Assembly: GCF_013366925.1 (NCBI RefSeq) | Contig: NZ_JAALDK010000001.1 | Location: forward strand, 2,549,089-2,613,088 | DNA length: 64,000 nt | DNA from: Paraburkholderia youngii | Lineage (GTDB): Bacteria; Pseudomonadota; Gammaproteobacteria; Burkholderiales; Burkholderiaceae | Direction: 5' to 3' | In this document: piece by piece, positions 35,572-54,395 of the stretch | Layout of the letters: every line of letters begins with the position of its first letter | How positions within the stretch are numbered: the stretch's first letter is position 1 | Made by a program: the position numbers and the translations under genes | Notes under the pieces: generated by a model | The model's input: the letters and a program-made list of their open reading frames with translations, nothing else | Database searches by the model: none | Told to the model about the DNA's origin: nothing

Positions 35572-35704
35572 GGGTTGGCTTTCCCCCTCTCTGCGCTCAG
35601 ACGTCTGCGATGCATGTCCCCTTGCCTGAAAATAGGTCGCAACAATGCCGTAATAATTCATCCGCACAATTCGACGCCACCAACAACGACAAGAAAGTCT
35701 CGTG

Positions 35705-37687
35705 ATGACTCATCTTCGCGTCTCTCTTCCGCTGCGCCTCACTATTCTCGCAAGCGTGGCGGCACTAGCCGCGTGCGGTGGCAGCAATGACTCTTCTACG
35801 CCGACGTCCTCGAATACTTCGACGACAACGACGACGGCCTCGATCCCGGCTCCGCCTGCCGACCCTGGTTTTGTCGACAACGCCGCAATCCCCGACGTGC
35901 CCGCGTTCGTCGACACGATTGCGACCAACCAGCGCGGCGACGCTCGATATGCGACGCTCGCCACGAATGCGGGCGTGCGTGTCGTCTCGCGATTCCTCGA
36001 TATCTGGCAACCGTTGACCGAGATCGTCGATGCGGGCGTATCCGCCCCCGCCAATGGTTCCTTTCCGGCTGTCGTGCAATCCACGTGGACCGGACTACCC
36101 AATGACGGTACGCCGGGTGGGGCGGTCGTGAATAGCGCCGTCCATGCCGCAAACATTCAATTCGTGGTCACCGAGACGACCAACCGAACCCAGGCACAGG
36201 CCGATGCAGCCTACTACGACGACCGGCGCGGCAAAGGCTACAGCGTGACCGACGGCATGGGCCCGCTCACCAACGCGTGGCGCACGGCGGCGCAGCAGAC
36301 GACGACGATCACGTCGATCCCGGCGGATGCGACGACCGTGCTGTACAACGACGCCGGCAACAACATCGGCGTCGGCAGCAGTGGCGGCAATAGCAATTTC
36401 GGCCAGGTTGTCGATCTGCTCAGCAACATGGGCAACAACGCATCGACCGAGCCGGCCAAGCGCTTCTACAAATACGCGCGGCCATACCGCTGGAGCACGA
36501 GTGTCGTGGTAGCTCCGACTCTGGTGCCGGCCGAGAGCACCACGCCTTCGACCGATGGCGGATATATCAGCGGTCACGAGGCGGAGGCGATGCGCGACGC
36601 GATGACAATGGCCTACGTGCTGCCGGAGCGGTTCCAGGAGATGGCGAGCCGCGGCCTCGAACTTGGCGAAAACCGCATTTTTGCCGGTATGCATTCGCCG
36701 CTCGACGTCATTGCTGGTCGAATGTTTGCACTTGCGGCGACTGCTGCGAATCTCTCCGATCCCAGCAACGCCACCTTGAAGGGCGCCGCATTTAGTCAGG
36801 CGCACGCAGCCCTGATGCAGTCGACCAACACCAATTCGACGAACTTCGCCGCTTTCGCCCACTCCGGCACGGCAGCGACGGACCGCTTCGCCGACTATGC
36901 AACGAACAAAGCAGACTTCACCCGCCGTATGACGTTCGGCTTTGCTCCGATCGAATCGACCGATGCGCCTCCCGTCGTGCCGAAGGGTGCGGAAGTATTG
37001 CTGGAGACGCGCTTTCCGTATCTGAGCGCAGCCCAGCGCCGCGTGGTGCTCAAGACGACCGAGCTTCCTTCCGGCTATCCGGTCATGGATGACGCGGAAG
37101 GATGGGGCCGCCTCAACATGTTTGCGGCCGGCGACGGATATGGTGCGTTCAATGGCAGCGTCATCGTTTCGATGGATGCGTCCCAAGGCGGATTCAACGC
37201 GTCGGATCTGTGGCGCAACGACATTTCCGGCGCGGGGAAGTTGACGCTGCAGGGTAGCGGTACGTTGAAGCTCGGTGGCAACAACACCTGGTCGGGCGGT
37301 TCCCAGGTAAGCGGCGGTGTGCTCGAGGCGGATTCTCCGAATGCGTTCGGCACGGGCGACGTGTATTTGGGTGCGGGCGGCGTCACCATCGCGGCGACTT
37401 CGCCCGTGTCCATCGTCGGCAAGTACACGCAGCTCGCCGGCACGACGCTCGAACTCGACATCGACGGCAAAGGCGCCGGCCAATTGCACGTTGGCAATCA
37501 ACTCACCATCGCAGGCGGCACGCTGCACGTGAAGTTCGTGAACGGCTTTGCGCCCAAGGTCGGCGACACCATCGATCTGATCGATGGCAATGGGGCGAAC
37601 AAGCAGTTCACGACGATCACGGTCGACGGCCACATGGCGACACCCGTTTATTCGGCGAACGGGGTGTCGGTGCACATCGATTCGTAA
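35705..37687 (+). CDS. Surface PAP2-type acid phosphatase lipoprotein with autotransporter-type beta-repeat
   Basis: A 660-residue protein. A lipoprotein signal ends at 'LAALAACGGSN'; a Ser/Thr linker follows. The vanadium haloperoxidase/PAP2 motifs are 'KRFYKYARPYRW', 'GGYISGHEAEAMRD' and 'ENRIFAGMHSPLDVIAGR', the usual acid phosphatase triad of regions with Ser in place of the PSGH proline-serine step. Residues ~490-600 contain a passenger-type beta-solenoid repeat ('GAGKLTLQGSGTLKLGGNNT', 'GGVLEADSPNAFGTGDVYL'). It is likely surface-bound and releases phosphate. ATG 35705 is preferred over the adjoining GTG. Confidence 0.8.
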   Translation: MTHLRVSLPLRLTILASVAALAACGGSNDSSTPTSSNTSTTTTTASIPAPPADPGFVDNAAIPDVPAFVDTIATNQRGDARYATLATNAGVRVVSRFLDIWQPLTEIVDAGVSAPANGSFPAVVQSTWTGLPNDGTPGGAVVNSAVHAANIQFVVTETTNRTQAQADAAYYDDRRGKGYSVTDGMGPLTNAWRTAAQQTTTITSIPADATTVLYNDAGNNIGVGSSGGNSNFGQVVDLLSNMGNNASTEPAKRFYKYARPYRWSTSVVVAPTLVPAESTTPSTDGGYISGHEAEAMRDAMTMAYVLPERFQEMASRGLELGENRIFAGMHSPLDVIAGRMFALAATAANLSDPSNATLKGAAFSQAHAALMQSTNTNSTNFAAFAHSGTAATDRFADYATNKADFTRRMTFGFAPIESTDAPPVVPKGAEVLLETRFPYLSAAQRRVVLKTTELPSGYPVMDDAEGWGRLNMFAAGDGYGAFNGSVIVSMDASQGGFNASDLWRNDISGAGKLTLQGSGTLKLGGNNTWSGGSQVSGGVLEADSPNAFGTGDVYLGAGGVTIAATSPVSIVGKYTQLAGTTLELDIDGKGAGQLHVGNQLTIAGGTLHVKFVNGFAPKVGDTIDLIDGNGANKQFTTITVDGHMATPVYSANGVSVHIDS

Positions 37688-37768
37688 TCCGGCCGGATGC
37701 CGCGTGGGATCGCGCTGCGCGTCAACCGTGAGGTACGGACCGCGCAACGCGAGACACGATCGCGAAAT

Positions 37769-38947
37769 TTACAACTCGAAAAAACAAAGCAACTTCCAGA
37801 GCAGGAAATTTCGTGTGCGGAAAGCGCAATCGAGCCTATCGACCTTGTCGCTGCTTATGCCACCGCTGCATTCCCTTCGCAACGCTTCCAGTTGAAGGCA
37901 GCATAGATAGAAGACTGCGCGCTTTACCTCATTGTCGAAATTGGCAAGCCTCCCGTAGAGCAGTGCGCCGAAATGACTCTTAACCTGCCCGAGGACCCGG
38001 TTGTCAGTCGGCAGGCCCAATGAACGTCTGTCCGACAGAAGCTTCAATACAATCCAATAGGCATCCAGTGTCTTTGGATCCCTGGTCAAGACAGCCGTCA
38101 GGCCGCGCGGGTTCTCGCGATAAAAGTAGACCGGCTGACTGAGGCTCACATAGCCATTGGCCAGCGGAAGCAGGACCAGCGTGACGACCGAATCTTCATA
38201 CGCCATGCCCTCCGGAAACTGCACGCTTTTGAAAAGATCGCGCTTGATGACTTTTCCCCACGGATACCCCGACAGATCGAAGACATCGGGATCAGCGCGA
38301 GTCGCGACCGAATCGTCGAAGACCTGCGTCCTATGTATTTTGTCCGTCACGTCGACGACCCAGTAACTGCCTTGCACGATATCGACGTCGTGTCGAAGTG
38401 CGGGAGCGAGTAGGGTCTCGACGCAGTCCGGCGGTAGGTAGTCGTCCGCGTCGACGAACATCACGTATTTGCCTTTTGCGTGTCTGAGACCTTCGTTGCG
38501 GGCCAGCGCCACGCCGCTGTTCGCGATGTGCACCACGGTTACGCGGGGGCGGTTCGCGTAGCAATCGAGAATGGCCGAAGAATCGTCCGTCGATCCATCA
38601 TCGACGGCAATCAGTTCGTAGGCGAGTGCGGTGTTCTGGGTCAGAACCGAGTCAATGCACTTCAGCAGATAGGCTTGCGCGTTGTACACGGGCACGATGA
38701 TGGAAAGCCATAGGCCCGTGTCCTCATTCATGCAGGCCAACTGCTGAGAAACTGATGGCCGATACGGTCTCAGTTTCTGTATGCGTGCCTCCAATGCCAT
38801 TTTGTCCATTGGCTTCTTTCTGCCGTCGGCTGTCAGCTTGAGGGCCGTGGCGACACAGGAAAGAGGGAATCGAGAGACCGCATCGAGGCTCCTGGCAACG
38901 GCGTCCGAGCCGGTAGCCCTGGAGACGTACCTATAGACCTTGCTCAT
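37769..38947 (-). CDS. Family 2 glycosyltransferase
   Basis: A 392-residue GT-A fold transferase. After an ~80-residue N-terminal extension come 'LSIIVPVYNAQAYLLKCIDS', 'LIAVDDGSTDDS', the DXD-like 'YVMFVDADDYLPPDC' and a distal acidic 'EGMAYEDSVVTLVLL' (the ED catalytic base). It adds a sugar to the EPS repeat unit; specificity is unknown. ATG 38947 has a perfect GGAGG site. It is the last gene of the left half-operon, 51 bp after the family 4 transferase. Confidence 0.86.
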   Translation of the reverse strand: MSKVYRYVSRATGSDAVARSLDAVSRFPLSCVATALKLTADGRKKPMDKMALEARIQKLRPYRPSVSQQLACMNEDTGLWLSIIVPVYNAQAYLLKCIDSVLTQNTALAYELIAVDDGSTDDSSAILDCYANRPRVTVVHIANSGVALARNEGLRHAKGKYVMFVDADDYLPPDCVETLLAPALRHDVDIVQGSYWVVDVTDKIHRTQVFDDSVATRADPDVFDLSGYPWGKVIKRDLFKSVQFPEGMAYEDSVVTLVLLPLANGYVSLSQPVYFYRENPRGLTAVLTRDPKTLDAYWIVLKLLSDRRSLGLPTDNRVLGQVKSHFGALLYGRLANFDNEVKRAVFYLCCLQLEALRRECSGGISSDKVDRLDCAFRTRNFLLWKLLCFFEL

Positions 38948-38998
38948 CCGTCCTCCGAGTCAAACAGTGCCTGATACAGCCGTCGAGACCGATTTCAT

Positions 38999-40138
38999 TC
39001 ATCGGCATCTTCGTGCTCCAGCAAAACCCTTCAACCCTGGCAGCTGACCGAACAGGCGATCCCAGATCGTCAGAATATGGGCAACGGAATAGCGATCCCG
39101 GATCGAGCGCGCGCCCCTGACGCCGAGCTCTTCGCGCAGCGCCTGGTCCGACAGCATGCGCCGCAGTCCGGCGGCGAGCGCTGTTGCATCGCCCGGTGGG
39201 ATCAGCAGACCGTCCTGCCCGTCGCGCATCAACTCGCGCGGCCCGCTCGGGCAGTCGAACGAGACCGCCGGCACACCGAGCGCCATGCTCTCCATCAGCG
39301 CCACCGGCATCCCTTCAAAGCGGGACGACAGTACGAAAGCGTCCGCGGCGGCCATCTCATCCCATGCAGCCTGCGTGCTGCCCGGCAGAAATACCCGCCT
39401 GGACAGATTGAGCTCTGCAATCCTGCGGGTGAGCATCGGCCGCTCAGGGCCTTCGCCCCAGATCCACAGATCCCAATCCTCGAAATCGTGCGCGACCTTC
39501 GCAAAGGTTTCGATCAGCAGCTCGTAGTGCTTCTGGGGGTTCAGACGACCCACTGAAATCAGGCGCTTTCTGCCTTCCACGCGCTGCGGCCTCGTCATGC
39601 TGAAAAGCTCGTCCGGAATCGGATTCGGCATCACGGCAATGTGAGGCGTGTCTCCCGAGCGCATCTTCTCGAACGGCGTTGCCATCGATTGGGAAAGGAA
39701 CGTGAGCGCGGTGGCCCGCGGGTAGGTGAGCCGGCAAAGCAGCTTCCACAGAAACGGGCGGCCATCGGCCACCGGATCGTTGTGCTCGCAGGCGATCACC
39801 GGAATGCGCAGGCCCCGTGAAGCCAGGATCACGTTGATGTTCACGTTGGTCAAAAACGACACGATGACGTCGGGCTGTTCTTCCACGAATAGCTTGCGCA
39901 ACTCCGCCAGTCTCGCGATGTAGTTGACCCGTCGCAGCGGGCTATGCTTGACGCGGTCGGCCAGATAGATCATCCGCACCTTCTCGTCGATGGGAAAAAA
40001 ACATCCACCATGTTTGCTGTAGGTCGGCACGAGCGTAACGGTGTCATTGCGCTGGGCCCACGCGGCCGACAGCACCGCGGCGACCCGTTCGGCGCCGCCC
40101 GGCTCACCCATTGAATTGACGACAAGAACAATTTTCAC
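38999..40138 (-). CDS. Family 4 glycosyltransferase, copy A
   Basis: A 379-residue GT-B fold retaining transferase: 'KIVLVVNSMGEPGGAERVAA' donor/acceptor start, C-terminal 'LISVGRLNPQKHYELLIETF', and 'LSSRFEGMPVALMESMALG' with the E-x7-E motif for the nucleotide-sugar ribose and phosphate. The start is GTG 40138 (aligned to copy B). The coding region is almost identical to 45699-46808; the last ~11 residues differ because copy B stops earlier. It sits 29 bp after the flippase gene. Confidence 0.86.
   Translation of the reverse strand: MKIVLVVNSMGEPGGAERVAAVLSAAWAQRNDTVTLVPTYSKHGGCFFPIDEKVRMIYLADRVKHSPLRRVNYIARLAELRKLFVEEQPDVIVSFLTNVNINVILASRGLRIPVIACEHNDPVADGRPFLWKLLCRLTYPRATALTFLSQSMATPFEKMRSGDTPHIAVMPNPIPDELFSMTRPQRVEGRKRLISVGRLNPQKHYELLIETFAKVAHDFEDWDLWIWGEGPERPMLTRRIAELNLSRRVFLPGSTQAAWDEMAAADAFVLSSRFEGMPVALMESMALGVPAVSFDCPSGPRELMRDGQDGLLIPPGDATALAAGLRRMLSDQALREELGVRGARSIRDRYSVAHILTIWDRLFGQLPGLKGFAGARRCR
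39049..40138. repeat. Long direct repeat, copy A
   Basis: These ~1,090 bases match 45719-46808 at a constant offset of 6,670. From 39049 to ~40010 I count six mismatches; from 40010 to 40138 there are about eight, and beyond both ends similarity falls sharply. Confidence 0.9.
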
Positions 40139-40167
40139 GTTTCGTAGTCTCTTGAACGGTCGAGGGC

Positions 40168-41547
40168 TCAGCGCATTTCGCTGTCGTGCCGCGAAGTTGA
40201 ACTGCTCCGCAGCATGCTGATCGCAAGCACGAATGCGGTTACGTACATCAAAGCAAGTGAAATCTGCACACCCGCGACTCCGAATAAGTGAACTAGCACG
40301 AAGCTGGCCCCTACCTTCACCGCGAACGCCAGCAAGGAGATGTTTGTCACTAGTCTGAAGCGTCCTTCGCTGGCAAAGAGTTGCCACACGACCATCAACG
40401 CAAAATAGAACGGTACTTGCAAAAGTCCCCAACGAAATGCGCTTGCCACTCTCACCGTATCTTCTGGCGTGAACGCACCTCGCTCGAACAGAACGGCGAT
40501 CGCAGTCGGAGCGAGGAACCACGACACCAGCGCACAAACGAGACCAGCAGCGAGCGTGGCGAGCGCCCAGAAAAGCGCCGTTCGGCGCGCACGCCGCGCA
40601 TCACCCTGCCTGCGGATGTCGGAGAAGATGGGCAGCGTGGCGCGCGCGGCAGCCATCGCCCCTACACTGAGCAACAACGCGAGTACGCGGTTCGCGTAGC
40701 CAAGCGTGCTATTCGATCCCGCTTCGAGATTCGCGACCAGGTATTGGTCGAGCGGTCCGGCGAAACAGACGGCGACCTGGCCGACCATGAGGGTGCGCAT
40801 GGACAGCCATGCTTCGCCCAGATGCGGAGAGCGCATGGAGAGCCTGACCCGGCTCGACACGCCGTCGGTGCGTCCGGCAAGCCACCTGAGGCAAAGCATC
40901 TGCAGCGCCAGGCCGACCACAGTTCCGAAGACGATCGACACGAGGCCCGCGTCGGGCGAAGCCACGAGTACGCTCACGAGAATCACCGCGGCAGGCAGCC
41001 CCTCGAGCAATGTATTCACATGCTTTTCGTTGGCCTGCAGCCGCGCGGCATAAATCCCCGCGCCGAGCGTCAGTACACCTGTGGGCGCGAGCCAGTACAT
41101 CATTTCGCGGGACAAGTCGCGCGTCGTCGACGGCGCATCCGGCCCAAGGTGCTGCATCACGAACGGCCAGCCGACGTATAGGACGATAGCAACCAGAAGA
41201 CCGCTCACTAGCGCGGCCCCTTCGAGCTCGCCGACGAACTGCGCCACGTCTTCCTTCTTTTGCGCGCGCAGGTTGACGAACATCGGCACGAGCACCACAC
41301 CTGCCACGGACAGCAATGTGGTTGGCAACCAGTTCACCATCGAAAACGTGAACTGATACGCATCGACAATGCTGCTGACTCCATACTTGTACGCAATCGC
41401 CATTTCCTTCAGCGCTCCGGCACATTTCCCGATGAGCACGAACGCAGAGACGCGCGCCAGGCTCCGTGCGATGCGTGCATGGTCAGGATGCGTACTGAGC
41501 ACCCGCTCGCGCCAGCGAGTCAGTTGGAACATCAGTGCGCTCACCAT
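40168..41547 (-). CDS. MurJ/MVIN-type polysaccharide flippase (Wzx role)
   Basis: A 459-residue inner-membrane protein with ~12-14 helices of the MOP superfamily, MVIN branch ('YKYGVSSIVDAYQFTFSMVN', 'AGVVLVPMFVNLRAQKKEDV', 'VLFERGAFTPEDT', 'LLQVPFYFALMVVWQLF'). It should flip the undecaprenyl-linked EPS repeat across the membrane. ATG 41547 is chosen; a small upstream frame (41541-41657) ends overlapping this start. The upstream open frame is in large part that remnant in another phase. Its close but broken relative lies at 46840-47031. Confidence 0.85.
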   Translation of the reverse strand: MVSALMFQLTRWRERVLSTHPDHARIARSLARVSAFVLIGKCAGALKEMAIAYKYGVSSIVDAYQFTFSMVNWLPTTLLSVAGVVLVPMFVNLRAQKKEDVAQFVGELEGAALVSGLLVAIVLYVGWPFVMQHLGPDAPSTTRDLSREMMYWLAPTGVLTLGAGIYAARLQANEKHVNTLLEGLPAAVILVSVLVASPDAGLVSIVFGTVVGLALQMLCLRWLAGRTDGVSSRVRLSMRSPHLGEAWLSMRTLMVGQVAVCFAGPLDQYLVANLEAGSNSTLGYANRVLALLLSVGAMAAARATLPIFSDIRRQGDARRARRTALFWALATLAAGLVCALVSWFLAPTAIAVLFERGAFTPEDTVRVASAFRWGLLQVPFYFALMVVWQLFASEGRFRLVTNISLLAFAVKVGASFVLVHLFGVAGVQISLALMYVTAFVLAISMLRSSSTSRHDSEMR

Positions 41548-41657
41548 CGTCTGAACCGTCCAAATTCCTGTGCGGCAAACTTCGCAGTGGCGAGTATTTC
41601 CGCTGGCGCTCGGTTGCGCGGCGCCGACGACGCCAGGGACACCTTCCTTTCGCTCAT
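41541..41657 (-). pseudogene. Remnant of a second wzc gene, now a 38-codon leader frame
   Basis: Starting at ATG 41657, the frame begins 'MSERKVSLASSAP', which aligns with the start of the intact Wzc-like protein at 49270 ('MNEKQISMPSSAR'), and shares AAATACTCG about 20 codons in. The 5' flank is also similar (CATGGAG and CACATGCTTCGC at matching spacing). Nearly all of the ~2.2-kb gene is deleted. The frame stops at TGA 41541-41543, overlapping the flippase ATG 41547, so ribosomes could pass from the remnant to the flippase. Confidence 0.7.
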
Positions 41658-41810
41658 GGAGTTCCTCAGGGCGCGGAGACCGAAGCCCACATGCTTCGCA
41701 CACGTAGGAGTCTTCCGTATCGCAGGGTTTAGACCGCGGCGTGGCACGCATCCGGCCACGCAAAACGTCGGTAAAACATAGCAGTCACTGCGTCCCTATT
41801 AATGTTTGAC

Positions 41811-41837
41811 AACGCACATTGACAGGTACCTATTTCC
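41811..41837. promoter_or_regulatory. Conserved upstream box, copy A
   Basis: A 27-bp block centred on GGTACC matches 23 of 27 bases of the block at 49427-49453. Both lie about 155 bp upstream of the (former or present) wzc start, in the gap between divergent EPS genes. It is probably part of a regulated promoter. Confidence 0.55.
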
Positions 41838-41931
41838 TCTACATTCACCGGGGTGCGCAGAAAGTACCGGAATAACGAATAGTTGAATCAAAGGCCTGGT
41901 CCAACTATTTGCTTAGCAGAGAAGCCATAGC

Positions 41932-43209
41932 ATGAGTACACAAATAACGATGCGGTCGACCGCAATTCATCGCAGCGCGATGTTCGTCGCGCTGCTGCTG
42001 TGCTCACTGACGAGCCATGGACCATATGTCGTGATGACAGGCATTCTGCTGCTTATGGCAGTGTGCATGAGCGACGCGAAGGTCCGCGAGGCGTTGTTCA
42101 GTATTCGATGCGTGGCTCTTGTGTCGCTTTCGGCGACTGTCATTACCGCGTGCTATCTGTGGTTTCTCGCAGTACCACACGGGAACGCTTCGTACAATCT
42201 CGAGAAATCCGCGACGAACAACTACATTTTCTTCTTGCTTGACATCGGCTTTCTTGCGTCATTCGCTGCGTTGATTTCAACACGCATCGGCGAAGTCACG
42301 ACAGCTGTCTCGAGGTTGCTAGTCCTCAATTGCTCCGTCCTGTTCCTGCAGACAGCAACGCTGCTCATCAGCGGCCAGTACATCGACTTTACCAGGCCGA
42401 TTACGGGTGACGCGTCGCGGTACCAGAATTGGGAGTCCGTGCATCCCGTTTTCGCATTCCGGCCGACGGGTCTGTATATAGAACCTTCGACGTTCGCCGC
42501 GGCCGTGGGAACCATGGCAATCGGCTATATCCTGCTTTCCAGGGCGAGAGGAAAGACGCCGGCTACGCTGCCCATCGCTCTGACCGTGCTATCCATGCTC
42601 ATCACGCAGTCAGCTGCGGCGGTTGTACAGGCGGTGGTGTTGATTGCAGCATTGATGGTCACGCACTCGCGCCGCATGAGAGCGTGGGCGACGGCAATAT
42701 TCACATTGATCGCCTTGGCCTCGCCGGGATTGATTGCGGCTTACGTCAATAGCTTCATGCTCAAAATCGATGCGGATTCAGGACTGCGCTTGCGGCTGCT
42801 GTCGTACGTCTATGAAGTGCGCCATGGATGGGATTTTCTGTTCGGCTACGGCCCCTTCTCCGTCGAATACGACCTGTTCGATGTCTCGGAACACACGTCG
42901 ACCTTTGTTGCATCACTTAACGACGCAGGATTGCTCAATTTTTTCGTCGTGCAACTTGGCATCGTAGGACTTGCAATTCCCATCGGCATATTCCTGGTCA
43001 TGAAAAAGGACATTGCCAATCTGTGCTTTTTCGGGCTGCTGATGTCATCAAAGCTGTCGTACACGTCGCCGCTTCTCTACTTCGGGCTCCTGCCCCTGGT
43101 GATGCGGCTGGGGGTATCGCGGGACAATACCCATTCGGCTGCCGGCTATCGGGGTGTCGATGTTGAGGGTAGAGAACCGGATTTGCTAGTTGCGCCGCGC
43201 TCGCCCTAA
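41932..43209 (+). CDS. Wzy-like EPS polymerase
   Basis: A 425-residue protein with about ten to eleven hydrophobic segments and a large periplasmic loop ('SGQYIDFTRPITGDASRYQN', 'FRPTGLYIEPSTFAAAVGTM'), the pattern of O-antigen/EPS polymerases. These proteins share little sequence, so the call rests on topology and on its place next to a flippase and Wzc. It is divergent from the flippase and may use the same regulatory region. ATG 41932 has GAGAAG upstream. Confidence 0.7.
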   Translation: MSTQITMRSTAIHRSAMFVALLLCSLTSHGPYVVMTGILLLMAVCMSDAKVREALFSIRCVALVSLSATVITACYLWFLAVPHGNASYNLEKSATNNYIFFLLDIGFLASFAALISTRIGEVTTAVSRLLVLNCSVLFLQTATLLISGQYIDFTRPITGDASRYQNWESVHPVFAFRPTGLYIEPSTFAAAVGTMAIGYILLSRARGKTPATLPIALTVLSMLITQSAAAVVQAVVLIAALMVTHSRRMRAWATAIFTLIALASPGLIAAYVNSFMLKIDADSGLRLRLLSYVYEVRHGWDFLFGYGPFSVEYDLFDVSEHTSTFVASLNDAGLLNFFVVQLGIVGLAIPIGIFLVMKKDIANLCFFGLLMSSKLSYTSPLLYFGLLPLVMRLGVSRDNTHSAAGYRGVDVEGREPDLLVAPRSP

Positions 43210-43271
43210 GTTTCGATCTGCGGCCGGTACTCGATCCTCTCATGTCCCGGCCTGCGAGGTTTGTGTTGCCC

Positions 43272-44459
43272 TCACGTGCGATCAATACCGAACCCGAACG
43301 CCTGGTCGCGCGTCGAATAGACGTGCCGGTAGCTTGCCCAGCAGCGCTCGATTGAAAAGCGTGTTGCCATTCGCGTGCGCGCCAGCTTGCCGAGCTGTTC
43401 GCGTCCCTCGCGGTCGAGCGAAAGCAGGCTAACGATACCAGCGGCGAGCGCGTCCGGATCGCCGCTCGGAACCAGACGGCCGGTTTCTCCCATCAATGCC
43501 GCGGTATCGCCTACATCGGTCGCCACGCAGGGGACACCGCATGCCATCGCTTCGCCAACCACCGTCGGCAGTCCCTCGCTTCGTGACGATAGACAGAAGA
43601 CGTCCAAAGCGGACATCAGCAGGTGCACGTCATTGCTTGCGCCCGTAAGTCGACAAACGTCCCTGATGCCCGCGCGGTCGATCATCGCCGTGAGTTCCCG
43701 ATTGCTCTCGTCAAGGCCCCGGCCAATCATGACGAAGCGGCAGTCCGGCTCCATTGCAGACACCCTCGCTACGGCGTTGATGAAAGTGCCATAGTCCTTG
43801 GCAGGGTCGTAGCGGCCGACTATGCCGACAATCTTCGTCGCAGGGTCCAGTCCGAGCGCCTTGCGCAACGGATCGCTGTCGCGCCGGCGCGGCTTGAACA
43901 AGTCGAGATCGAAGCCGTTGAAAATCACCTGCATTCGCGTACTGCAATAGCCGCCTCGGACGTGCGAGATGCGCGCCGCGTCAGCGCAGCAGATGATCAC
44001 GTCGGGCAGGCGCGTTGACAGCCACGCACAGAACTTCGCGACGATTGCCAGCTTCGTGCCCGAACGCAGCGATGGGAACTCGGTCTGATGCACACCCCAG
44101 GCGAGCCTCAAGGTACCGCCTCGTCGTTCGCCCCGTCCCGCGACGATCCGGGCGATGCGCGCGGCGATTCCGCCAAACAGATCCGCGTGATACATCCAGG
44201 TTTGCACAACGTCAGGACGCAGTTCGATCAGCCAGCGCACGAGGCGAAACAGCATGAGCGGATTGGGCAAACTCCGCGACATGCCGAGTATCCGCACTTC
44301 GACACCGAGCGATCGTATGCGCTCGCTCATCGTGTCGAGTGACGACATGGAGATCACCGTGTGCTGGACACCATCGCGCTGCGACGCCTGGATCAGCCGA
44401 TAGAGCATCATTTCGGCCCCGCCTACCCGCAGCCCGGAGATGACATGGACGATTCTCAT
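43272..44459 (-). CDS. Family 4 glycosyltransferase
   Basis: A 395-residue GT-B transferase: 'RIVHVISGLRVGGAEMMLYR', 'VIFNGFDLDLFKPRR', 'IVGRYDPAKDYGTFINAVAR' and 'SRSEGLPTVVGEAMACGVPC'. ATG 44459 overlaps the stop of the upstream transferase by four bases, so they are coupled. It is the last gene of the right half-operon and convergent with the polymerase gene. Confidence 0.87.
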   Translation of the reverse strand: MRIVHVISGLRVGGAEMMLYRLIQASQRDGVQHTVISMSSLDTMSERIRSLGVEVRILGMSRSLPNPLMLFRLVRWLIELRPDVVQTWMYHADLFGGIAARIARIVAGRGERRGGTLRLAWGVHQTEFPSLRSGTKLAIVAKFCAWLSTRLPDVIICCADAARISHVRGGYCSTRMQVIFNGFDLDLFKPRRRDSDPLRKALGLDPATKIVGIVGRYDPAKDYGTFINAVARVSAMEPDCRFVMIGRGLDESNRELTAMIDRAGIRDVCRLTGASNDVHLLMSALDVFCLSSRSEGLPTVVGEAMACGVPCVATDVGDTAALMGETGRLVPSGDPDALAAGIVSLLSLDREGREQLGKLARTRMATRFSIERCWASYRHVYSTRDQAFGFGIDRT

Positions 44460-45676
44460 GGCGATGTCCCCTCCGGCGGTGTTGCCACCAAGCCTGCGAC
44501 CGGCACCGGCACCGTCGCCGGGACCGGCGACGCGGCGCCCAACTCCTGATAGATCGACAGCAACTTGGCGAGCACGATGTTCTCGTCGAACTCGGTTTGC
44601 ACCTTCGCTCTCGCGGCAAGGCCCAGCTTGGCGCCGAGCGCGCGATCGTCGTCGAGCATGCGGATCGCGTCGGCGAGCGCTTTGGGGTCTCGCGCCGGAA
44701 TGAGGATGCCATCGTCGCCGTTGCGGCTCACCACTTCGCGGCAGCCGGGCGCATCGGTCGTGATCAGCGGTAGCGCGCAGGCTGCGCCCTCGATCAGCGT
44801 CGTCGGCAAACCTTCCCGATAGTAGCTCGGCAACACGACCACATCGACCTCCGAAAGCAAGGCGGGCATATCACTGACGTGCCCCAGCCAGGTAAGCAGG
44901 TTGTCGCGGTCCCATTCCTCGATCTTGCTGCGCTGAATCGCGGCTGGATTGCCCTCGTCGGGAGAGCCCGCCAGCAGGAAAATCACCGAACGGCCTTCGC
45001 TCTTCAGTATCCGAGACGCTTCGACGAATTCGCCGATACCCTTTTCCCAGATCAGCCTCGCCGCCAGCACGATGCGCAACGGCGCACCTTTTTTCGTCTC
45101 GGCCGGCTCGCGCGGCCGGTAGCGTGTCAGGTTCACCCCCGCGCCTCTCACGAGCCGCACCGCCCGGTCCGCAGCGATGCGAGACCGCTTGAAGAGCGCG
45201 ACGTCCGACGAATTCTGCAGAACGACGGCGGAGCGTTCCCCATTGAAGGCGAAGCGCATGAGATTGCTCACCACGGGACGCAGCATGCGGGCGCGCAGTT
45301 CATCGCTCGTGAACACGTAACCGAGGCCATCGATGCCGTTGACGCGAATCGGCACGCCGGCCAGCCGCGCCGCGAGCGAGCTATAGACTGCGCCCTTGAT
45401 CGTAAAGCCGTGGACGAGCAGCGGACGCTCGCGTCTGAAAACGCGTGCGAGCCATAGAATGAGGCCGACCTCGCGCCATGGGTTGAGGCTGCGCCGTTCC
45501 ATCGGAATCGCCTCCCAGGTAAAACCGAGAGCTCGAAGCTTCGGCCCATAACTGCCGTCGGGCGATAGCAGGATCACCTCGAACCCGCGCTCTCGTAGGG
45601 TTTGTGCGAGCGACAAGCGGAAGTTGAAGAGATACCAGTCCGTGTTCGCGAGAAGAATGACTTTATTCGTCGGCAC
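44456..45676 (-). CDS. Family 4 glycosyltransferase with Pro/Val-rich tail
   Basis: A 406-residue GT-B transferase similar to PglA/amylovoran-type enzymes ('VILLANTDWYLFNFRLSLAQ', 'VLAARLIWEKGIGEFVEASR', 'SYYREGLPTTLIEGAACALP'). The last ~25 residues are a 'PVPATVPVPVAGL' low-complexity tail outside the fold. The start is GTG 45676 with GGAGG upstream. It begins 22 bp after the copy-B transferase. Confidence 0.86.
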   Translation of the reverse strand: MPTNKVILLANTDWYLFNFRLSLAQTLRERGFEVILLSPDGSYGPKLRALGFTWEAIPMERRSLNPWREVGLILWLARVFRRERPLLVHGFTIKGAVYSSLAARLAGVPIRVNGIDGLGYVFTSDELRARMLRPVVSNLMRFAFNGERSAVVLQNSSDVALFKRSRIAADRAVRLVRGAGVNLTRYRPREPAETKKGAPLRIVLAARLIWEKGIGEFVEASRILKSEGRSVIFLLAGSPDEGNPAAIQRSKIEEWDRDNLLTWLGHVSDMPALLSEVDVVVLPSYYREGLPTTLIEGAACALPLITTDAPGCREVVSRNGDDGILIPARDPKALADAIRMLDDDRALGAKLGLAARAKVQTEFDENIVLAKLLSIYQELGAASPVPATVPVPVAGLVATPPEGTSP

Positions 45677-45698
45677 TATCGTCCTCCGGAAAAACTGA

Positions 45699-46808
45699 TT
45701 AACCCAGGCGCAACTGGGCGAACAGGCGATCCCAGATCGTCAGAATATGGGCAACGGAATAGCGATCCCGGATCGAGCGCGCGCCCCTGACGCCGAGCTC
45801 TTCGCGCAGCGCCTGGTCCGACAGCATGCGCCGCAGTCCGGCGGCGAGCGCTGTTGCATCGCCCGGTGGGATCAGCAGACCGTCCTGCCCGTCGCGCATC
45901 AACTCGCGCGGCCCGCTCGGGCAGTCGAACGAGACCGCCGGCACACCGAGCGCCATGCTCTCCATCAACGCCACCGGCATCCCTTCAAAGCGGGACGACA
46001 GTATGAAAGCGTCCGCGGCGGCCATCTCATCCCATGCAGCCTGCGTGCTGCCCGGCAGAAATACCCGCCTGGACAGATTGAGCTCTGCAATCCTGCGGGT
46101 GAGCATCGGCCGCTCAGGGCCTTCGCCCCAGATCCACAGATCCCAATCCTCGAAATCGTGCGCGACCTTCGCAAAGGTTTCGATCAGCAGCTCGTAGTGC
46201 TTCTGGGGGTTCAGACGACCCACTGAAATAAGGCGCTTTCTGCCTTCCACGCGCTGCGGCCTCGTCATGCTGAAAAGCTCGTCCGGAATCGGATTCGGCA
46301 TCACGGCAATGTGAGGCGTGTCTCCCGAGCGCATCTTCTCGAACGGCGTTGCCATCGATTGGGAAAGGAACGTGAGCGCGGTGGCCCGCGGGTAGGTGAG
46401 CCGGCAAAGCAGCTTCCACAGAAACGGGCGGCCATCGGCCACCGGATCGTTGTGCTCGCAGGCGATCACCGGAATGCGCAGGCCCCGTGAAGCCAGGATC
46501 ACGTTGATGTTCACGTTGGTCAAAAACGACACGATGACGTCGGGCTGCTCTTCCACGAATAGCTTGCGCAACTCCGCCAGTCTCGCGATGTAGTTGACCC
46601 GTCGCAGCGGGCTATGCCTGACGCGGTCGGCCAGATAGATCATCCGCACCTTCTCGTCGATGGGAAAAAAACATCCACCGTGTTTGCTGTAGGTCGGCAC
46701 GAGCGTAACGGTGTCGTTGCGTTGGGCCCACGCGGCCGACAGCACCGCGGCAACCCGTTCGGCGCCGCCCGGTCCTCCCATTGAATTGACGACAAGAACA
46801 ATCTTCAC
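45699..46808 (-). CDS. Family 4 glycosyltransferase, copy B
   Basis: A 369-residue near-twin of the transferase at 38999-40138, with the same GTG start. It ends 'FAQLRLG' rather than the longer tail of copy A, and differs near the N-terminus (Gly for Glu in 'NSMGGPGGAERV'). Both copies are full-length with intact 'SSRFEGMPVALMESM' catalytic region. A fused upstream frame is not part of this protein but derives from the flippase remnant. Confidence 0.86.
   Translation of the reverse strand: MKIVLVVNSMGGPGGAERVAAVLSAAWAQRNDTVTLVPTYSKHGGCFFPIDEKVRMIYLADRVRHSPLRRVNYIARLAELRKLFVEEQPDVIVSFLTNVNINVILASRGLRIPVIACEHNDPVADGRPFLWKLLCRLTYPRATALTFLSQSMATPFEKMRSGDTPHIAVMPNPIPDELFSMTRPQRVEGRKRLISVGRLNPQKHYELLIETFAKVAHDFEDWDLWIWGEGPERPMLTRRIAELNLSRRVFLPGSTQAAWDEMAAADAFILSSRFEGMPVALMESMALGVPAVSFDCPSGPRELMRDGQDGLLIPPGDATALAAGLRRMLSDQALREELGVRGARSIRDRYSVAHILTIWDRLFAQLRLG
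45719..46808. repeat. Long direct repeat, copy B
   Basis: This is the partner of 39049-40138, in the same orientation. Direct repeats of this length 6.7 kb apart could recombine and delete the flippase, polymerase and two transferase genes between them. Confidence 0.9.
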
Positions 46809-46839
46809 GTTTCGTTGTCTCCCCGGAACGGCCAAAGGC

Positions 46840-47031
46840 TCAGCGTGTTTCGCGGTTGAAAACTGCACACCAACTGGCCCGAATTGGCGGGCCAGCACGA
46901 AGTCGCGCGCCACTATTACGGCGAACGGCAGTAACGAGATGTTTGTGCACGAGCACGACACCGGCTAAAGAAAGCAACGTCGCGAATAGCCGGTTCTCCG
47001 TCGTGAAGTCGAACTGATACGCGTCGACGAT
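46840..47031 (-). pseudogene. Internally deleted flippase remnant
   Basis: On the minus strand, 47031 downward encodes 'IVDAYQFDF' and 'TLLSLAGVVLV', matching 'IVDAYQFTF' and 'TLLSVAGVVLV' of the intact flippase. After a junction and a frame change comes 'TNISLLPFAVIVARDFVL', matching 'TNISLLAFAVKVGASFVL', then 'GVQFS' for 'GVQIS'. The segment ends with Glu-Thr-Arg-stop for Glu-Met-Arg-stop. About 1 kb of the middle is missing and at least one frameshift is present. It lies directly between the wzc stop and the copy-B transferase, the position of the flippase in the other half-operon. Confidence 0.85.
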
Positions 47032-47032
47032 G

Positions 47033-49270
47033 TCAGTTCATGCGGTCAGTGTGCTGGCTCGTCGCATAGATGTGGCTGCCGTAGCGCCCCGGATGCAGGT
47101 ACTTCACGCTGCGTACCGAGAAGCCGTTAAGCATCACGCCGTGTATCCGGGTGCCGACCTGGGCAAAGCGCCTTGCCGTTTCCTCGATTTCCGCAAGACG
47201 GGTTTCCGAGAACCGTGCCACCAGAAAGACCGATCCTGCGTGCGGCGCGACAATGCCGGCGTCCGAGACGGCGAGCGCCGGCGCCGAATCGAGCAGTACG
47301 ATGTCGTATCGCGCCGACGCATTACTCATCAAGCTGTCGAAAGCGACGCTATTGAGCAATTCGGCCGGATTGGCGGGATAGTCACCACACGGCAAGATGT
47401 CGAGATTCGGTAAAACCTCTCGTGTTGCAAGCTCGACAGTCAGTGACGGGTCCGCGAGAACTTCCGCGAGTCCCAGGCCGGACGGAAGTCCAAAACTGCG
47501 ATGCAGGGCGCCCCTGCGCAAGTCACAGTCGACGAGCAGCACGCGTTTTCCGGTCATCGCCAGGATCACCGCAAGGTTCGCGGCGACGAACGACTTTCCG
47601 ACCTGTGGCATCGGACCCGCCACCATGACGATGTTGTTGCGCGCACTCGCCAACATGTATTGCAGGGCCGAGCGGAACGAACGCAGGCTTTCCGCGGCCG
47701 GATCGGACGGGTGCCGGCAGGCGAGAATCAGGTCGCGCGCGTCGGTAGCGTTCGCTTTGGTCTGAAGCTCGTCCTGCTTTGCGCTATGAGGCACCATTCC
47801 GTACACCATCAGACCGGTGCGAGCTTCGACTTGTTCAGGCTCGGTCACCCCAGCGAAAAGCAGCTCGCGGACAAACGAAATCGCGACACCCGCAAGTAGT
47901 CCGAGTAACAACGACGCGGCGAGCACGAGTGACCGCACGGGCCGCACCGGATGTTCGGGTACGATTGCGGGATCGATGATCTGCGCGAAACCCGCTTTGC
48001 TCGCCTGAATGAGCCGAAGTTGCTCGACATTGTTCCGCGCCGCCGTGTAAAGGTCGGTCGTCATTCTCACGTCGCGCATCAGGGCGAGCGCGTCTTGTTG
48101 CTCCGTCGGCATGGCATTGACGCGCGCTCTCCCGGCTTCAAGATACTGCTTCGTCATCGCGATCTGCGCATCGAGCGACGCTACGGCCGGATACGACGGC
48201 GCGTATCGCGCTGCCAGATCGGCACGGGTGCGCTGCAGCGTGAGCAGCTGTGCCTCAGCATCGGAGACTCTCTGCAGATTTAGCCGCCCTTCTTCAGTCG
48301 CATCGACGAGACCGAGCGAATTGCGATATGCGGTGTAGCGGTGCTCGGCCGCCACCATTTGCGCTTGCATAGCGGGTAACTGACTCTCCAGGAACCTCAG
48401 CGAATTTGCTGCGATGGTCGCATTGCGATCGTTATTTTCACGCACGTATTGCGCGCCGAGCGCGTTCAACGTCTGGCTAAGCATCTCCGGATCGCTACCC
48501 CGCATGGAGACGCTCACGACGTTCGACTTCTCGCCTTGCTCAGTGATCTGCAGATGCTTCTGCATATCGTCAATCACGTCCTGGCGCGACAAGCGCTTCA
48601 GATTGAACCGGATACCGGGCCCCGCCACGATCGTGTCGATGCGCAACGTCACATCGCCTTTGGTGGTCGCGATCGTTTCGGTCCGACCGACGCTGCCGAC
48701 GAAGGGCCTGTCAAGCTCACTACCGCTCAGCTCGTATCGATCCTCGGACAGCGCCGTCAATGTCAGCTGGCGGTCTTCCAGCTCGCGTGGAACTTTGAAT
48801 GCACCAACCTTGATCTGTTCCTTGCCCCACGCGTAGCCGCCAATGGCGCCAAAGACCGACTTCGAGAGATCACTTGCATGACTCGCGAGCCACGCTCCGA
48901 TGACAGGAAAGCGACGCGGGCCTGAAACAACGTCGAGCTCGAGCTCATCGACCACATGTGCGACGGTCTGGCGCGACTGGATTACCTGCATCTCTCCCGT
49001 CGTCTTCGACCTTGCATCGAACGCAGGCGAAACCATCGACATCAGTTCCGGACGCGAGGAGGGCTGCGCTTCAGGCAACTGATCGATCTTGACGAGAATG
49101 TTCGACTGGTAGACCGGCGACGTGAGCGCGACGACGCCACCCACAACGAGGCAGACCACCGTTGTGACTGCAATCGTCAGCCGGCGCCGCGAAATCACAT
49201 CGAGTATTTGCGAAAGATTGCCGTGGCTGGACCGCGCCGACGACGGCATCGATATCTGCTTTTCGTTCAT
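47033..49270 (-). CDS. Wzc-like chain-length determinant and tyrosine autokinase
   Basis: A 745-residue polysaccharide co-polymerase. A Wzz domain lies between helix ~31-51 and helix ~447-466, with long periplasmic coiled coils. The cytoplasmic BY-kinase has Walker A at 552-560 ('GPMPQVGKS', Gln where Gly is usual), Walker A' D581/D583 ('LLVDCDLRRG') and Walker B 'IVLLDSAP'. The C-terminus has only three tyrosines ('VKYLHPGRYGSHIYATS'), fewer than in E. coli Wzc. It controls EPS length and export with a Wza channel not found in the window. ATG 49270. Confidence 0.9.
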   Translation of the reverse strand: MNEKQISMPSSARSSHGNLSQILDVISRRRLTIAVTTVVCLVVGGVVALTSPVYQSNILVKIDQLPEAQPSSRPELMSMVSPAFDARSKTTGEMQVIQSRQTVAHVVDELELDVVSGPRRFPVIGAWLASHASDLSKSVFGAIGGYAWGKEQIKVGAFKVPRELEDRQLTLTALSEDRYELSGSELDRPFVGSVGRTETIATTKGDVTLRIDTIVAGPGIRFNLKRLSRQDVIDDMQKHLQITEQGEKSNVVSVSMRGSDPEMLSQTLNALGAQYVRENNDRNATIAANSLRFLESQLPAMQAQMVAAEHRYTAYRNSLGLVDATEEGRLNLQRVSDAEAQLLTLQRTRADLAARYAPSYPAVASLDAQIAMTKQYLEAGRARVNAMPTEQQDALALMRDVRMTTDLYTAARNNVEQLRLIQASKAGFAQIIDPAIVPEHPVRPVRSLVLAASLLLGLLAGVAISFVRELLFAGVTEPEQVEARTGLMVYGMVPHSAKQDELQTKANATDARDLILACRHPSDPAAESLRSFRSALQYMLASARNNIVMVAGPMPQVGKSFVAANLAVILAMTGKRVLLVDCDLRRGALHRSFGLPSGLGLAEVLADPSLTVELATREVLPNLDILPCGDYPANPAELLNSVAFDSLMSNASARYDIVLLDSAPALAVSDAGIVAPHAGSVFLVARFSETRLAEIEETARRFAQVGTRIHGVMLNGFSVRSVKYLHPGRYGSHIYATSQHTDRMN

Positions 49271-49592
49271 GGAGATCCCCAGGACAAACAGAACCCGTAA
49301 GTCACATGCTTCGCGAAGAAACGCTCCGTCCGTTGTGAAGCATCAGATCAGTCGCGCAGCAGGCCTACAGTAGCCAAAATCATTTCGGTAGAACGTACCA
49401 GCGGGCCGGCCCCGTTTGTGTATGGAAACGAACATTGATGGGTACCTTTTTCCCGTACCTTCTGTACCCGTCGGTAGCAAATGCCGAATTAATAAAAAGG
49501 CTGCTCGCCACACAAATGGCTTTAATCGTCGTGGAATTCGCGTTTTGTGTGTGAGAGACAGTTATCAGGTCAACACCATCGAGGCGAGAGAG
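49271..49592. other. Divergent promoter region of the EPS locus
   Basis: These 322 bp lie between the wzc-like and WecA-like starts. They are rich in GTACC pentamers (near 49394, 49442, 49455 and 49464) and include the conserved box at 49427-49453. No gene is supported. Confidence 0.55.
49427..49453. promoter_or_regulatory. Conserved upstream box, copy B
   Basis: This is the partner of 41811-41837, with 23 of 27 identical positions around a GGTACC core. It lies ~157 bp before the wzc ATG, almost the same distance as in copy A. Confidence 0.55.
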
Positions 49593-50756
49593 ATGCCGAA
49601 CTTAATATTTGGCCTATTAGCATGCTTTCTGATTACTTTTATCGTTGTCAAAAGCGCTCGGCTCGGTGGCGGCATTGGACTCGACAATCAACTCGATGGC
49701 GTACAAAAGATGCACGCTACGGCCGTGCCCCGTGTAGGTGGCATCGCGGTCGCGCTCGCGGTGGCGCTAACACTCGCGCTCGGTGCATTACTCGGCAGTA
49801 ATCCGCGCATGGAGGTTTTCAAATTGCTTCTGTGCGCGTTGCCAGTTTTCCTCGGCGGGATCATCGAGGACTTCACCAAGCAGGTGAGTCCAGCGGCGAG
49901 GTTGCTATGTGCAATCGTTTCTGCGGCGATCGGCGATTTTGCGCTAGGGGCCGTCGTCGATCGTGTGGATCTTCCGCTGATAGATTCCCTTCTTGTCTAT
50001 TCGCCAATCGCGCTGGGCCTCACTTTGCTCATGGTGTCCGGCTTGACCAACGCGTTCAATCTGATCGACGGCTTCAACGGATTGGCCGGCGGAGTGGCAG
50101 TTCTGATGCTGGCCTCGATTGGTTTCGTCGCACATCAGGTGGACGACTGGCTGATTCTCAGCGTGTCCCTGACGATGATCGGCGCCATCGTGGGCTTCCT
50201 CGTGTGGAACTACCCATCCGCGGCGATTTTCCTCGGCGACGGGGGTGCGTACTTCATCGGCTTTACGATTGCCGAACTCGTCGTCCTCCTTATAGCGCGC
50301 CATCCGAATGTCTCTGCCTGGTACGCTGTCGTCGTGACGATCTATCCGATCTTCGAAACCGTCTTCACGATCTACCGGCGGCGCATTGTGCGCGGCTGCG
50401 CGGCAGGCGAGCCTGACGGCATCCATTTGCACACGTTGATCTTCAGGCGGATGGTGCGCCGCGCAGCTCATCCCGAGACGACACGCCAGCGCACGAGGCG
50501 CAACGCGAGGACGTCGCCATACCTTTGGACGATCAGCCTCATCAGTATCGTGCCGGCGACGTTCCTTTGGAATAACGAAGTGGCGCTCTTTGCGACCGCG
50601 ATGACTTTCATGGCGGTCTACGTTTGGCTGTATGTATCGATCGTCAAATTCAGGGCACCGCGCTGGCTCGTGATTTACATGCCCCGCGATTCGTTGCCCG
50701 CTCCGAGCGAAACACCGGCTAACCACACCGCTGAGCAGCCATCCCAGGCGGAATGA
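49593..50756 (+). CDS. WecA/MraY-type undecaprenyl-phosphate sugar-1-phosphate transferase
   Basis: A 387-residue inner-membrane enzyme with about ten to eleven helices that primes EPS synthesis on undecaprenyl phosphate. Conserved parts are 'HATAVPRVGGIAVALAV', the Mg2+ site 'TNAFNLIDGFNGLAGG', 'AAIFLGDGGAYFIGFTIAEL' and the cytoplasmic 'GIHLHTLIFRRMVRR' loop. The C-terminal tail is polar. ATG 49593 follows GAGGCGAGAG; a 59-codon upstream extension runs through the promoter box and is rejected. The sugar is probably a HexNAc. Confidence 0.88.
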   Translation: MPNLIFGLLACFLITFIVVKSARLGGGIGLDNQLDGVQKMHATAVPRVGGIAVALAVALTLALGALLGSNPRMEVFKLLLCALPVFLGGIIEDFTKQVSPAARLLCAIVSAAIGDFALGAVVDRVDLPLIDSLLVYSPIALGLTLLMVSGLTNAFNLIDGFNGLAGGVAVLMLASIGFVAHQVDDWLILSVSLTMIGAIVGFLVWNYPSAAIFLGDGGAYFIGFTIAELVVLLIARHPNVSAWYAVVVTIYPIFETVFTIYRRRIVRGCAAGEPDGIHLHTLIFRRMVRRAAHPETTRQRTRRNARTSPYLWTISLISIVPATFLWNNEVALFATAMTFMAVYVWLYVSIVKFRAPRWLVIYMPRDSLPAPSETPANHTAEQPSQAE

Positions 50757-50899
50757 ATTCGCATATCAGCTGGACAGAGCGGACCAATCTTCCATCAAAA
50801 AAAATCTCATTGCAGTCGGCTATGCACTCCTCGTCGTGCAAGGCCGAACGTGCAAATGACCCAGGCATTCTTATGTAGGCAATCGTACCCGGAGCGATT

Positions 50900-53364: not shown

Positions 53365-53436
53365 GCGCCATCCATGCGGATCGTGTCGAGTTCAGGTTCA
53401 TCGATACGCCAACTGTCTACTCAGTGAGTGTGCCCA

Positions 53437-54324: not shown

Positions 54325-54395
54325 TTGGCGAAGGCCGGATGTCCGTCCGGCTGTAACCCTGTTGCGCTATTAAACGAACGCTGGAGTCAATTTTC

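Follow-up and report, generated by a model that had tools for sequence, protein, structure and literature searches.

A split Wzx/Wzy-type polysaccharide locus in Paraburkholderia youngii and its probable origin by tandem duplication and reciprocal gene loss

RESULTS

The subject of this study is a polysaccharide locus in a 64,000-nucleotide stretch of Paraburkholderia youngii DNA, here called the window, to whose positions all coordinates refer; the Paraburkholderia host genome (G000) comprises 9.49 Mb in four contigs. The locus has two halves, a left one at 37769–43209 and a right one at 43272–50756, and our data point to a seven-gene Wzx/Wzy-type block that very probably was duplicated in tandem and then lost genes reciprocally, so that the two halves would form one pathway. 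An initiating transferase, a flippase, a polymerase (recognized as Wzy by its relatives only), a co-polymerase/kinase, and glycosyltransferases (GTs) are all encoded, which is the gene content of a Wzx/Wzy-type system. Relatives referred to throughout are the sister genome, which we take to be P. atlantica CNPSo 3155 (G010; its flippase contig, C13/NZ_WHNQ01000110.1, has 6063 bases), and the genomes G192 (presumably, and probably, Trinickia violacea) and G446.

In the left half, the minus strand carries a GT2 glycosyltransferase gene (37769–38947; PF00535), an intact GT4 glycosyltransferase gene, GT4L (39020–40138; PF00534), and the retained, intact copy of a flippase gene (40168–41547; start ATGGTGAGC) whose product has the MurJ (MVF) family PF03023 as its only Pfam match. 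Next come the decayed 5′ end of a wzc gene (wzc′; 41541–41657, minus strand) and P′ (41768–41846, strand not assigned), which by its similarity to a region P in the right half is the second copy of a divergent upstream region and a presumed promoter. The sole copy of a gene for a Wzy-like polymerase follows on the plus strand (41932–43209). The Wzy-like protein had no Pfam match at E 1e-3, and we infer its label from relatives: among the matches listed, 3 of 19 relatives carry PF04932, one is named “O-antigen ligase family protein,” and the gene adjoins wecA in G192 and G446. At 43210–43271, gene order compared with G192 and G446 would place the duplication junction, where the 3′ end of the left-copy wzy meets the 3′ end of the right-copy GT4b.

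The minus strand of the right half carries the sole copy of GT4b (43272–44459; PF13692/PF00534; 76.5% identity to G192), the sole intact copy of GT4c (44456–45676; PF13692; 78.2% to G192), a second intact GT4 gene, GT4R (45699–46808; PF00534), a flippase remnant (flippase′; 46840–47032), and the only intact wzc of the locus, encoding a Wzc-type tyrosine autokinase/co-polymerase (47033–49270; PF23607, PF13807, PF13614, and PF02706). Beyond P (49385–49462, strand not assigned), the first copy of the divergent upstream region and likewise a presumed promoter, the plus strand carries the only intact wecA of the locus (49593–50756; PF00953). Its product is a WecA-type polyprenyl-phosphate sugar-phosphate transferase, with TIGR02380 as the best NCBIfam match at a score under the family cutoff.

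The two halves are homologous and colinear. Comparison of 37700–43240 with 43241–51000 by blastn gave five blocks at E 0.01, all in the same order and on the same strand: GT4 with its flanks (96.4%), two flippase pieces (71 and 72%), the beginning of wzc together with its 5′ untranslated region (74%), and the divergent region (71%). Outside GT4, the paralogous copies are 65 to 79% identical. The blocks of the flippase and wzc remnants had E-values of 1e-8 to 5e-7 and alignment scores of 55 to 59, compared to maxima of 29 to 34 in 500 dinucleotide shuffles each; indeed, every remnant that we count (flippase′, wzc′, the GT4c′ start, P′, and a 3′ fragment of wecA′ in the sister) outscored all 500 shuffles. 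As controls, the right half was reversed, which left no blastn match to the left half, and six other stretches of the same genome were compared, five of which gave no match and one a 27-base minus-strand match (E 0.004).

The homology of the wzc remnant covers the 5′ untranslated region and the first ~12 codons (41621–41699 versus 49234–49314, 74%), and its coding part taken alone is the weakest of the alignments (score of 34 versus a shuffle maximum of 31). An earlier note on this DNA had read all of 41657–41541 as a wzc remnant. The 5′ piece is real, but the remainder has no detectable wzc homology and belongs to a 38-codon open frame. The stop codon of this frame overlaps the flippase start (ATGGTGA, 41541–41547) in both species, and translational coupling of the frame with the flippase is possible. 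The frame has the same length in the sister, with 14 of 117 bases different, 5 of these 14 at third positions; a conserved leader peptide on the wzc remnant is not supported, since the differences show no third-position preference. As to the intact gene, a C-terminal tyrosine cluster is a hallmark of Wzc, and the C terminus encoded at 47033–47110 has fewer tyrosines than that of a relative (L119).

In the flippase′ remnant, an internal deletion has brought the 3′ end and a 5′ piece together. Positions 46857–46946 align with 40258–40347 of the flippase gene (71%), and the directly adjoining positions 46947–47032 align with 41286–41371 (72%), in the same order and on the same strand; the last codons (46840–46856) fall within the GT4-linked alignment. 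The intact gene has 938 bases between these pieces, and their absence from the remnant shifts the frame. Hence, the remnants of wzc and the flippase that the earlier note had placed at the expected positions exist, with small coordinate corrections, and the region 46840–47031 aligns with the flippase gene above background, in both pieces beyond all shuffles. The internal junction is identical in the sister, which retains more of the 3′ end, indicating that decay began before the two species split and continued afterwards; the deletion itself is older than the split from P. atlantica. Between the species, over 187 shared columns, the flippase′ remnants are 86.6% alike and the functional flippase genes are 95.2% alike, the remnant thus changing more quickly than the working gene. 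A scan of genome contigs with the flippase returned the sister contig at 97% and otherwise relatives of at most 46%, the closer relatives having come from separate searches.

P′ and P share 70.9% identity (score of 41 versus a shuffle maximum of 29), and 46 bases of P match the equivalent place in G192 (78%). When a 27-base core pattern was derived from P and P′, the genome contained it at only these two sites, even with three mismatches allowed. A scan of 38000–51000 with a sigma-70 consensus found no promoter-like site.

Under the block model, two further remnants might persist, and both were noted before testing: wecA′ between P′ and wzy, and GT4c′ beside GT4L. At the site of the lost left-copy wecA′ (41847–41931, plus strand), nothing was recognized in the window. 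The sister, however, has ~112 extra bases between P′ and wzy with a 3′ fragment of wecA (blastn, 78% over 50 columns; score of 42 versus a shuffle maximum of 30). A 5′ piece there (27 bases, 85% to G192) is marginal, its score being reached by 1 of 500 shuffles with wecA of G192 and by 88 of 500 with wecA of the window, and only the 3′ piece is counted. The same interval of the sister holds a near-perfect inverted repeat (GCAAATAGTTGAATC...GATTCAACTATTTGC; L011, ~4249–4289), which is degenerate in the window (~41878–41912). GT4c′ is represented by its start-codon context (38991–39041, minus strand), found by local alignment (score of 35 versus a maximum of 29 in 500 shuffles), with an orthologous flank in the sister.

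GT4 is the only gene that is still double. GT4L and GT4R, the transferases A and B of the earlier note, are 96.4% identical over 1198 columns including flanks and 98% identical in the core parts compared, with 6 differences in the 997 bases of the core at ~39049–40045; the flanks are 33 to 66% alike on the 3′ side and fall from 84 to 48% on the 5′ side. When the four copies of both species were compared at the 3′ end of the core (344 columns), 14 sites grouped the copies by species, 2 by position, and 8 in another way. Without the last 127 columns, which may be an assembly overlap, the corresponding counts over 217 columns were 8, 2, and 6. In the flank (105 columns), 1 site grouped them by species, 39 by position, and 8 otherwise. 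We read this pattern as homogenization of the GT4 copies by gene conversion within each species. In P. atlantica, the assembly is interrupted within each of the GT4 copies, as expected of a long repeat, and its left copy is unreadable in mid-gene.

The locus was laid out by tblastn in 19 related genomes or records, namely, 13 genomes of the genus (of which G136, G057, G034, and G110 were reexamined), 3 named contigs, and G192, G446, and G364. The last three belong to a set of 43 genomes, out of 398 in the family, in which a relative of the flippase was matched at E 1e-100. In 16 of the 19 layouts, relatives of both wzc and the flippase lie in the fetched stretch; the stretches fetched as L012, L013, and L014 have no wzc at E 1e-15. 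None of the 19 has the split arrangement. G192 and G446 carry an undoubled block, GT4b-GT4c-GT4-flippase-wzc / divergent region / wecA-wzy, in which the flippase adjoins wzc and wzy adjoins wecA. The gene order of the window is that of two such G192-type blocks, head to tail, minus one copy of each gene, with two exceptions: GT4 has stayed double, and GT2 is extra. As for ancestral forms among the relatives, the single, undoubled copy exists, but a full double copy was found in none of the 19.

These relatives also bear on a simple rearrangement, in which the flippase and wzy were transposed or inverted within a single locus and the remnants are due to chance or are unrelated. Genes have moved in some distant relatives (wzy, the flippase, and GT4b in G057; GT4 and wzy in G364), but the doubled upstream region, the doubled GT4, the wzc′ and flippase′ fragments, and the wecA′ fragment of the sister all need two copies, and chance is contradicted by remnant scores above those of all 500 shuffles. 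We give a simple rearrangement next to no credence.

Other differences among the relatives concern additional genes. In G136 (L119), G110 (L117), and G034 (L122), wzc and the flippase are separated by genes for a TviB-like UDP-sugar dehydrogenase and a TviC-like epimerase; the dehydrogenase alone lies there in G364 (L167/L168), and both lie beside wzc in G057 (L111), where the flippase is elsewhere. The dehydrogenase query had no match in the host or sister genome at E 1e-20 (no positive control was included), and for the epimerase, a 29% relative in each genome was the only match. Together with these searches, the occurrence of the two genes in distant relatives suggests a change in the sugar of the repeat unit. 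Their absence as a part of the double decay was considered and rejected: neither gene was matched in the G192 and G446 stretches, and therefore, this difference is older and lies outside the duplication and loss. G057 also has a second wzc relative (36%). In G136, a further flippase relative (48%) lies on another contig, C63 (L118, 3231–4514), next to a tyrosinase-like gene and a partial match to the epimerase.

Trees were built for genes of both halves. Those of the flippase and wzy (left) and of wzc, wecA, GT4c, and GT4b (right) all group the window with the sister, then with a JGI contig of 22.9 kb (present in the flippase, wzy, and wzc trees only), and then with G192; in the wzy and GT4b trees, some nodes have lower support. 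Protein identity to the JGI contig is 80% for the flippase, 77% for wzy (89% covered), and 80% for wzc. Among 83 flippase codons compared, there are 25 at which the left copies of the window and the sister agree with each other and differ from the JGI contig; the flippase′ of the sister matches the JGI contig at 10 and the left copy at 3.

The trees matter for the question of whether the two halves could have come together from two loci that were related but had evolved apart, for instance through recombination with the locus of another strain, and decayed afterwards. One topology around the window, the sister, and G192 for left and right genes alike, similar identities to the JGI contig (80 and 77% for the left genes, 80% for wzc on the right), and the head-to-tail arrangement that tandem duplication predicts all speak against such a merger, which we regard as very unlikely. 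What can be said for it is that the paralogous remnants are merely 65 to 79% identical and the copies hence old, that the trees are blind to a merger between two strains of one lineage, and that the flippase sites informative with G192 as the outgroup split ~2:1:1 (counted by eye), giving no order in time relative to the lineage of the JGI contig. The earlier note had proposed either a duplication or a merger followed by complementary decay, and a duplication with such decay has the support of the undoubled block of G192 and G446, the remnants in place, and the deletion common with P. atlantica. Of its two options, a duplication is favored over a merger of unlike loci because the genes of both halves give the same tree.

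The ratios of nonsynonymous to synonymous substitution (dN/dS) relative to the sister are 0.07 for the flippase, 0.15 for wzy, 0.13 for GT4b, 0.14 for GT4c, 0.09 for wzc, 0.08 for wecA, and 0.17 for GT2. With GT2 included, the seven single-copy genes of the halves have values of 0.07 to 0.17 and are under purifying selection. This selection has to be set against the possibility that the halves serve two different polymers, each borrowing from other exopolysaccharide loci, with no composite pathway. The left half has a GT2 of its own, and five additional Wzc relatives and two Wza genes are present in the genome; such an arrangement is nevertheless unlikely, given that what is divided between the halves here is a single block in G192 and G446, that neither the flippase nor wzy has a second match in the host genome at E 1e-40, and that all seven single-copy genes are under selection between both species.

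Several points weigh against a tandem duplication with reciprocal loss. The remnants are short (51 to 193 bases), and some of those expected are missing or faint. At the site of the lost right-copy wzy′ (50757–50899, plus strand) and its equivalent in the sister, no remnant was found (86 of 500 shuffles reach the score; in six further tests, the score was reached by 33, 33, 37, 39, 136, and 6 of 300 shuffles); blastn of left versus right gave no block for GT4b′; and GT4c′ was found in the local-alignment test only, without a blastn match at E 0.1. The 3′ end of the left half carries a GT2 that the block model leaves unexplained. It sits where GT4c′ and GT4b′ of the left copy are expected, is 93% identical to its sister copy, had no tblastn match at E 1e-8 in 54 kb of G192, and had a 26% match in G446. 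The identity of the GT4 copies in the sister partly rests on contig ends, as the assembly breaks in both. Finally, the host genome has five further Wzc homologues at E 1e-100 or better, so that others could cover the loss of the left wzc, and the outer-membrane Wza of a Wzx/Wzy-type system is missing from the locus: wza (PF02563) was found in the host genome at C1:5768962 and C1:4589110 only, with none in the window, and therefore, export would need Wza in trans.

The right half is followed by genes on the plus strand (50900–55424) that encode ATP-grasp-like, FAD-dependent oxidoreductase, polysaccharide deacetylase, and pectate-lyase-like proteins; these also lie beyond wzy in G192, with the pectate-lyase-like gene at a different place. 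On the other side, the flanking gene (35702–37687) encodes a protein that combines a PAP2 domain with a passenger repeat of the autotransporter type (PF12951). Elsewhere in the window, a 69% direct repeat (3046–3194 and 4179–4327) lies between neighboring genes whose products resemble two-component regulators.

DISCUSSION

In sum, the homology and order of the blocks, the undoubled relatives, the remnants in both species, and the purifying selection lead us to consider it highly probable that a seven-gene Wzx/Wzy-type block was duplicated in tandem and reduced by reciprocal loss to two complementary halves. The ancestral block would have had GT4b, GT4c, GT4, the flippase, and wzc on the minus strand, the divergent upstream region, and wecA and wzy on the plus strand, and the unit was presumably duplicated in place. 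The left copy would then have lost wzc, wecA, GT4c, and GT4b and kept GT4, the flippase, and wzy; the right copy would have lost the flippase and wzy and kept GT4b, GT4c, GT4, wzc, and wecA. GT4 alone would have stayed double, its copies held nearly identical by gene conversion. That each half lacks a gene kept by the other had been noticed before for wzc and the flippase, but the pattern is wider: wecA, wzy, GT4b, and GT4c are single as well, with wzy (41932) and wecA (49593) part of the reciprocal pattern, the divergent region is doubled, and the two GT4 transferases are nearly identical.

In our model, both halves together would make one polymer; the notion of one functional composite pathway is suggested by purifying selection and gene content. 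WecA would start the lipid-linked repeat, the GTs would extend it, the MurJ-type flippase would turn it over, and Wzy would polymerize it, while Wzc would control length and export with a Wza borrowed from elsewhere in the genome. Both divergent regions, P and P′, would be needed, and one assembly line would be driven from two sites.

The GT4 repeats are direct, and therefore, a crossover between them would delete the flippase, wzy, GT4b, and GT4c. Any collapse of the duplication would thus entail loss, and from the gene order it follows that reciprocal loss would have made the duplication irreversible without functional loss; no variant genome with such a deletion was seen. A further idea, which we offer tentatively and consider doubtful, is that the GT4 repeats are a built-in off-switch, recombination between them deleting the 6.7-kb flippase/wzy/GT4b/GT4c segment, and that control of the one pathway is split over two sites. 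If true, the polymer could be lost in one step, and the duplication of P and P′ would divide control of a single pathway between two places. The switch would be akin to the recombination-mediated loss of the capsule in Haemophilus influenzae type b, reportedly described by Kroll in 1988.

In our view, it is difficult to demonstrate gene-order change by duplication and random loss in bacteria after the intermediate forms are gone. The present case combines ancestor-like relatives, a sister species, and the remnants of four lost genes, of which three lie in the window and one, wecA′, in the sister; from these, the direction and the ongoing decay can be followed. The locus illustrates how copying followed by loss can rearrange the gene order of bacteria and how reciprocal loss can turn a normally reversible tandem duplication into a permanent one. 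It also carries a warning for annotation, as either half taken alone would resemble a broken locus.

Among the literature matches listed, there was no published case of reciprocal loss across a whole polysaccharide block, and the passages of PMC12190745 consulted do not discuss duplication-random loss. The nearest bacterial analogues are the cap-b locus of H. influenzae with its bexA gene and region D′ of Neisseria meningitidis. The cap-b locus is duplicated, with one copy carrying a truncated bexA export gene and with the copies flanked by IS1016 (PMC6535587). Tandem duplication of a surface-polysaccharide locus is thus common to both, as far as that source describes it; unlike cap-b with its one truncated gene, the present copies are 65 to 79% identical outside GT4 and show reciprocal loss over six genes. 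In contrast to IS1016 at cap-b, no insertion sequence element was noticed at our locus, where no search for one was made. In N. meningitidis, regions D and D′ of the cps locus hold an intact and a truncated galE (PMC5349592). As described there, the repeated segment of a polysaccharide locus with an intact and a truncated gene is common to both systems, but the meningococcal loss is one-sided, with D′ holding the remnant, and the loss described here is reciprocal. The meningococcal genes for biosynthesis and export are not themselves known to be split.

Concerted evolution of prokaryotic paralogues, in which paralogues within a species are closer than orthologues between species, has been described (PMC6053082). 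The GT4 pair likewise is more alike within species than between them, although here the effect is confined to that pair inside an otherwise diverged duplication. Gene order in animal mitochondria provides the model for the process itself, tandem duplication-random loss (PMC5745709). As that source presents it, a block is copied in tandem, one copy of each gene is lost, and a new order arises with remnants in place, just as we propose for the locus of P. youngii. Unlike in the mitochondrial model, the setting is a biosynthetic locus on a bacterial chromosome with divergent operons, one gene has remained double and would be homogenized, and the decay is common to two species and still ongoing.

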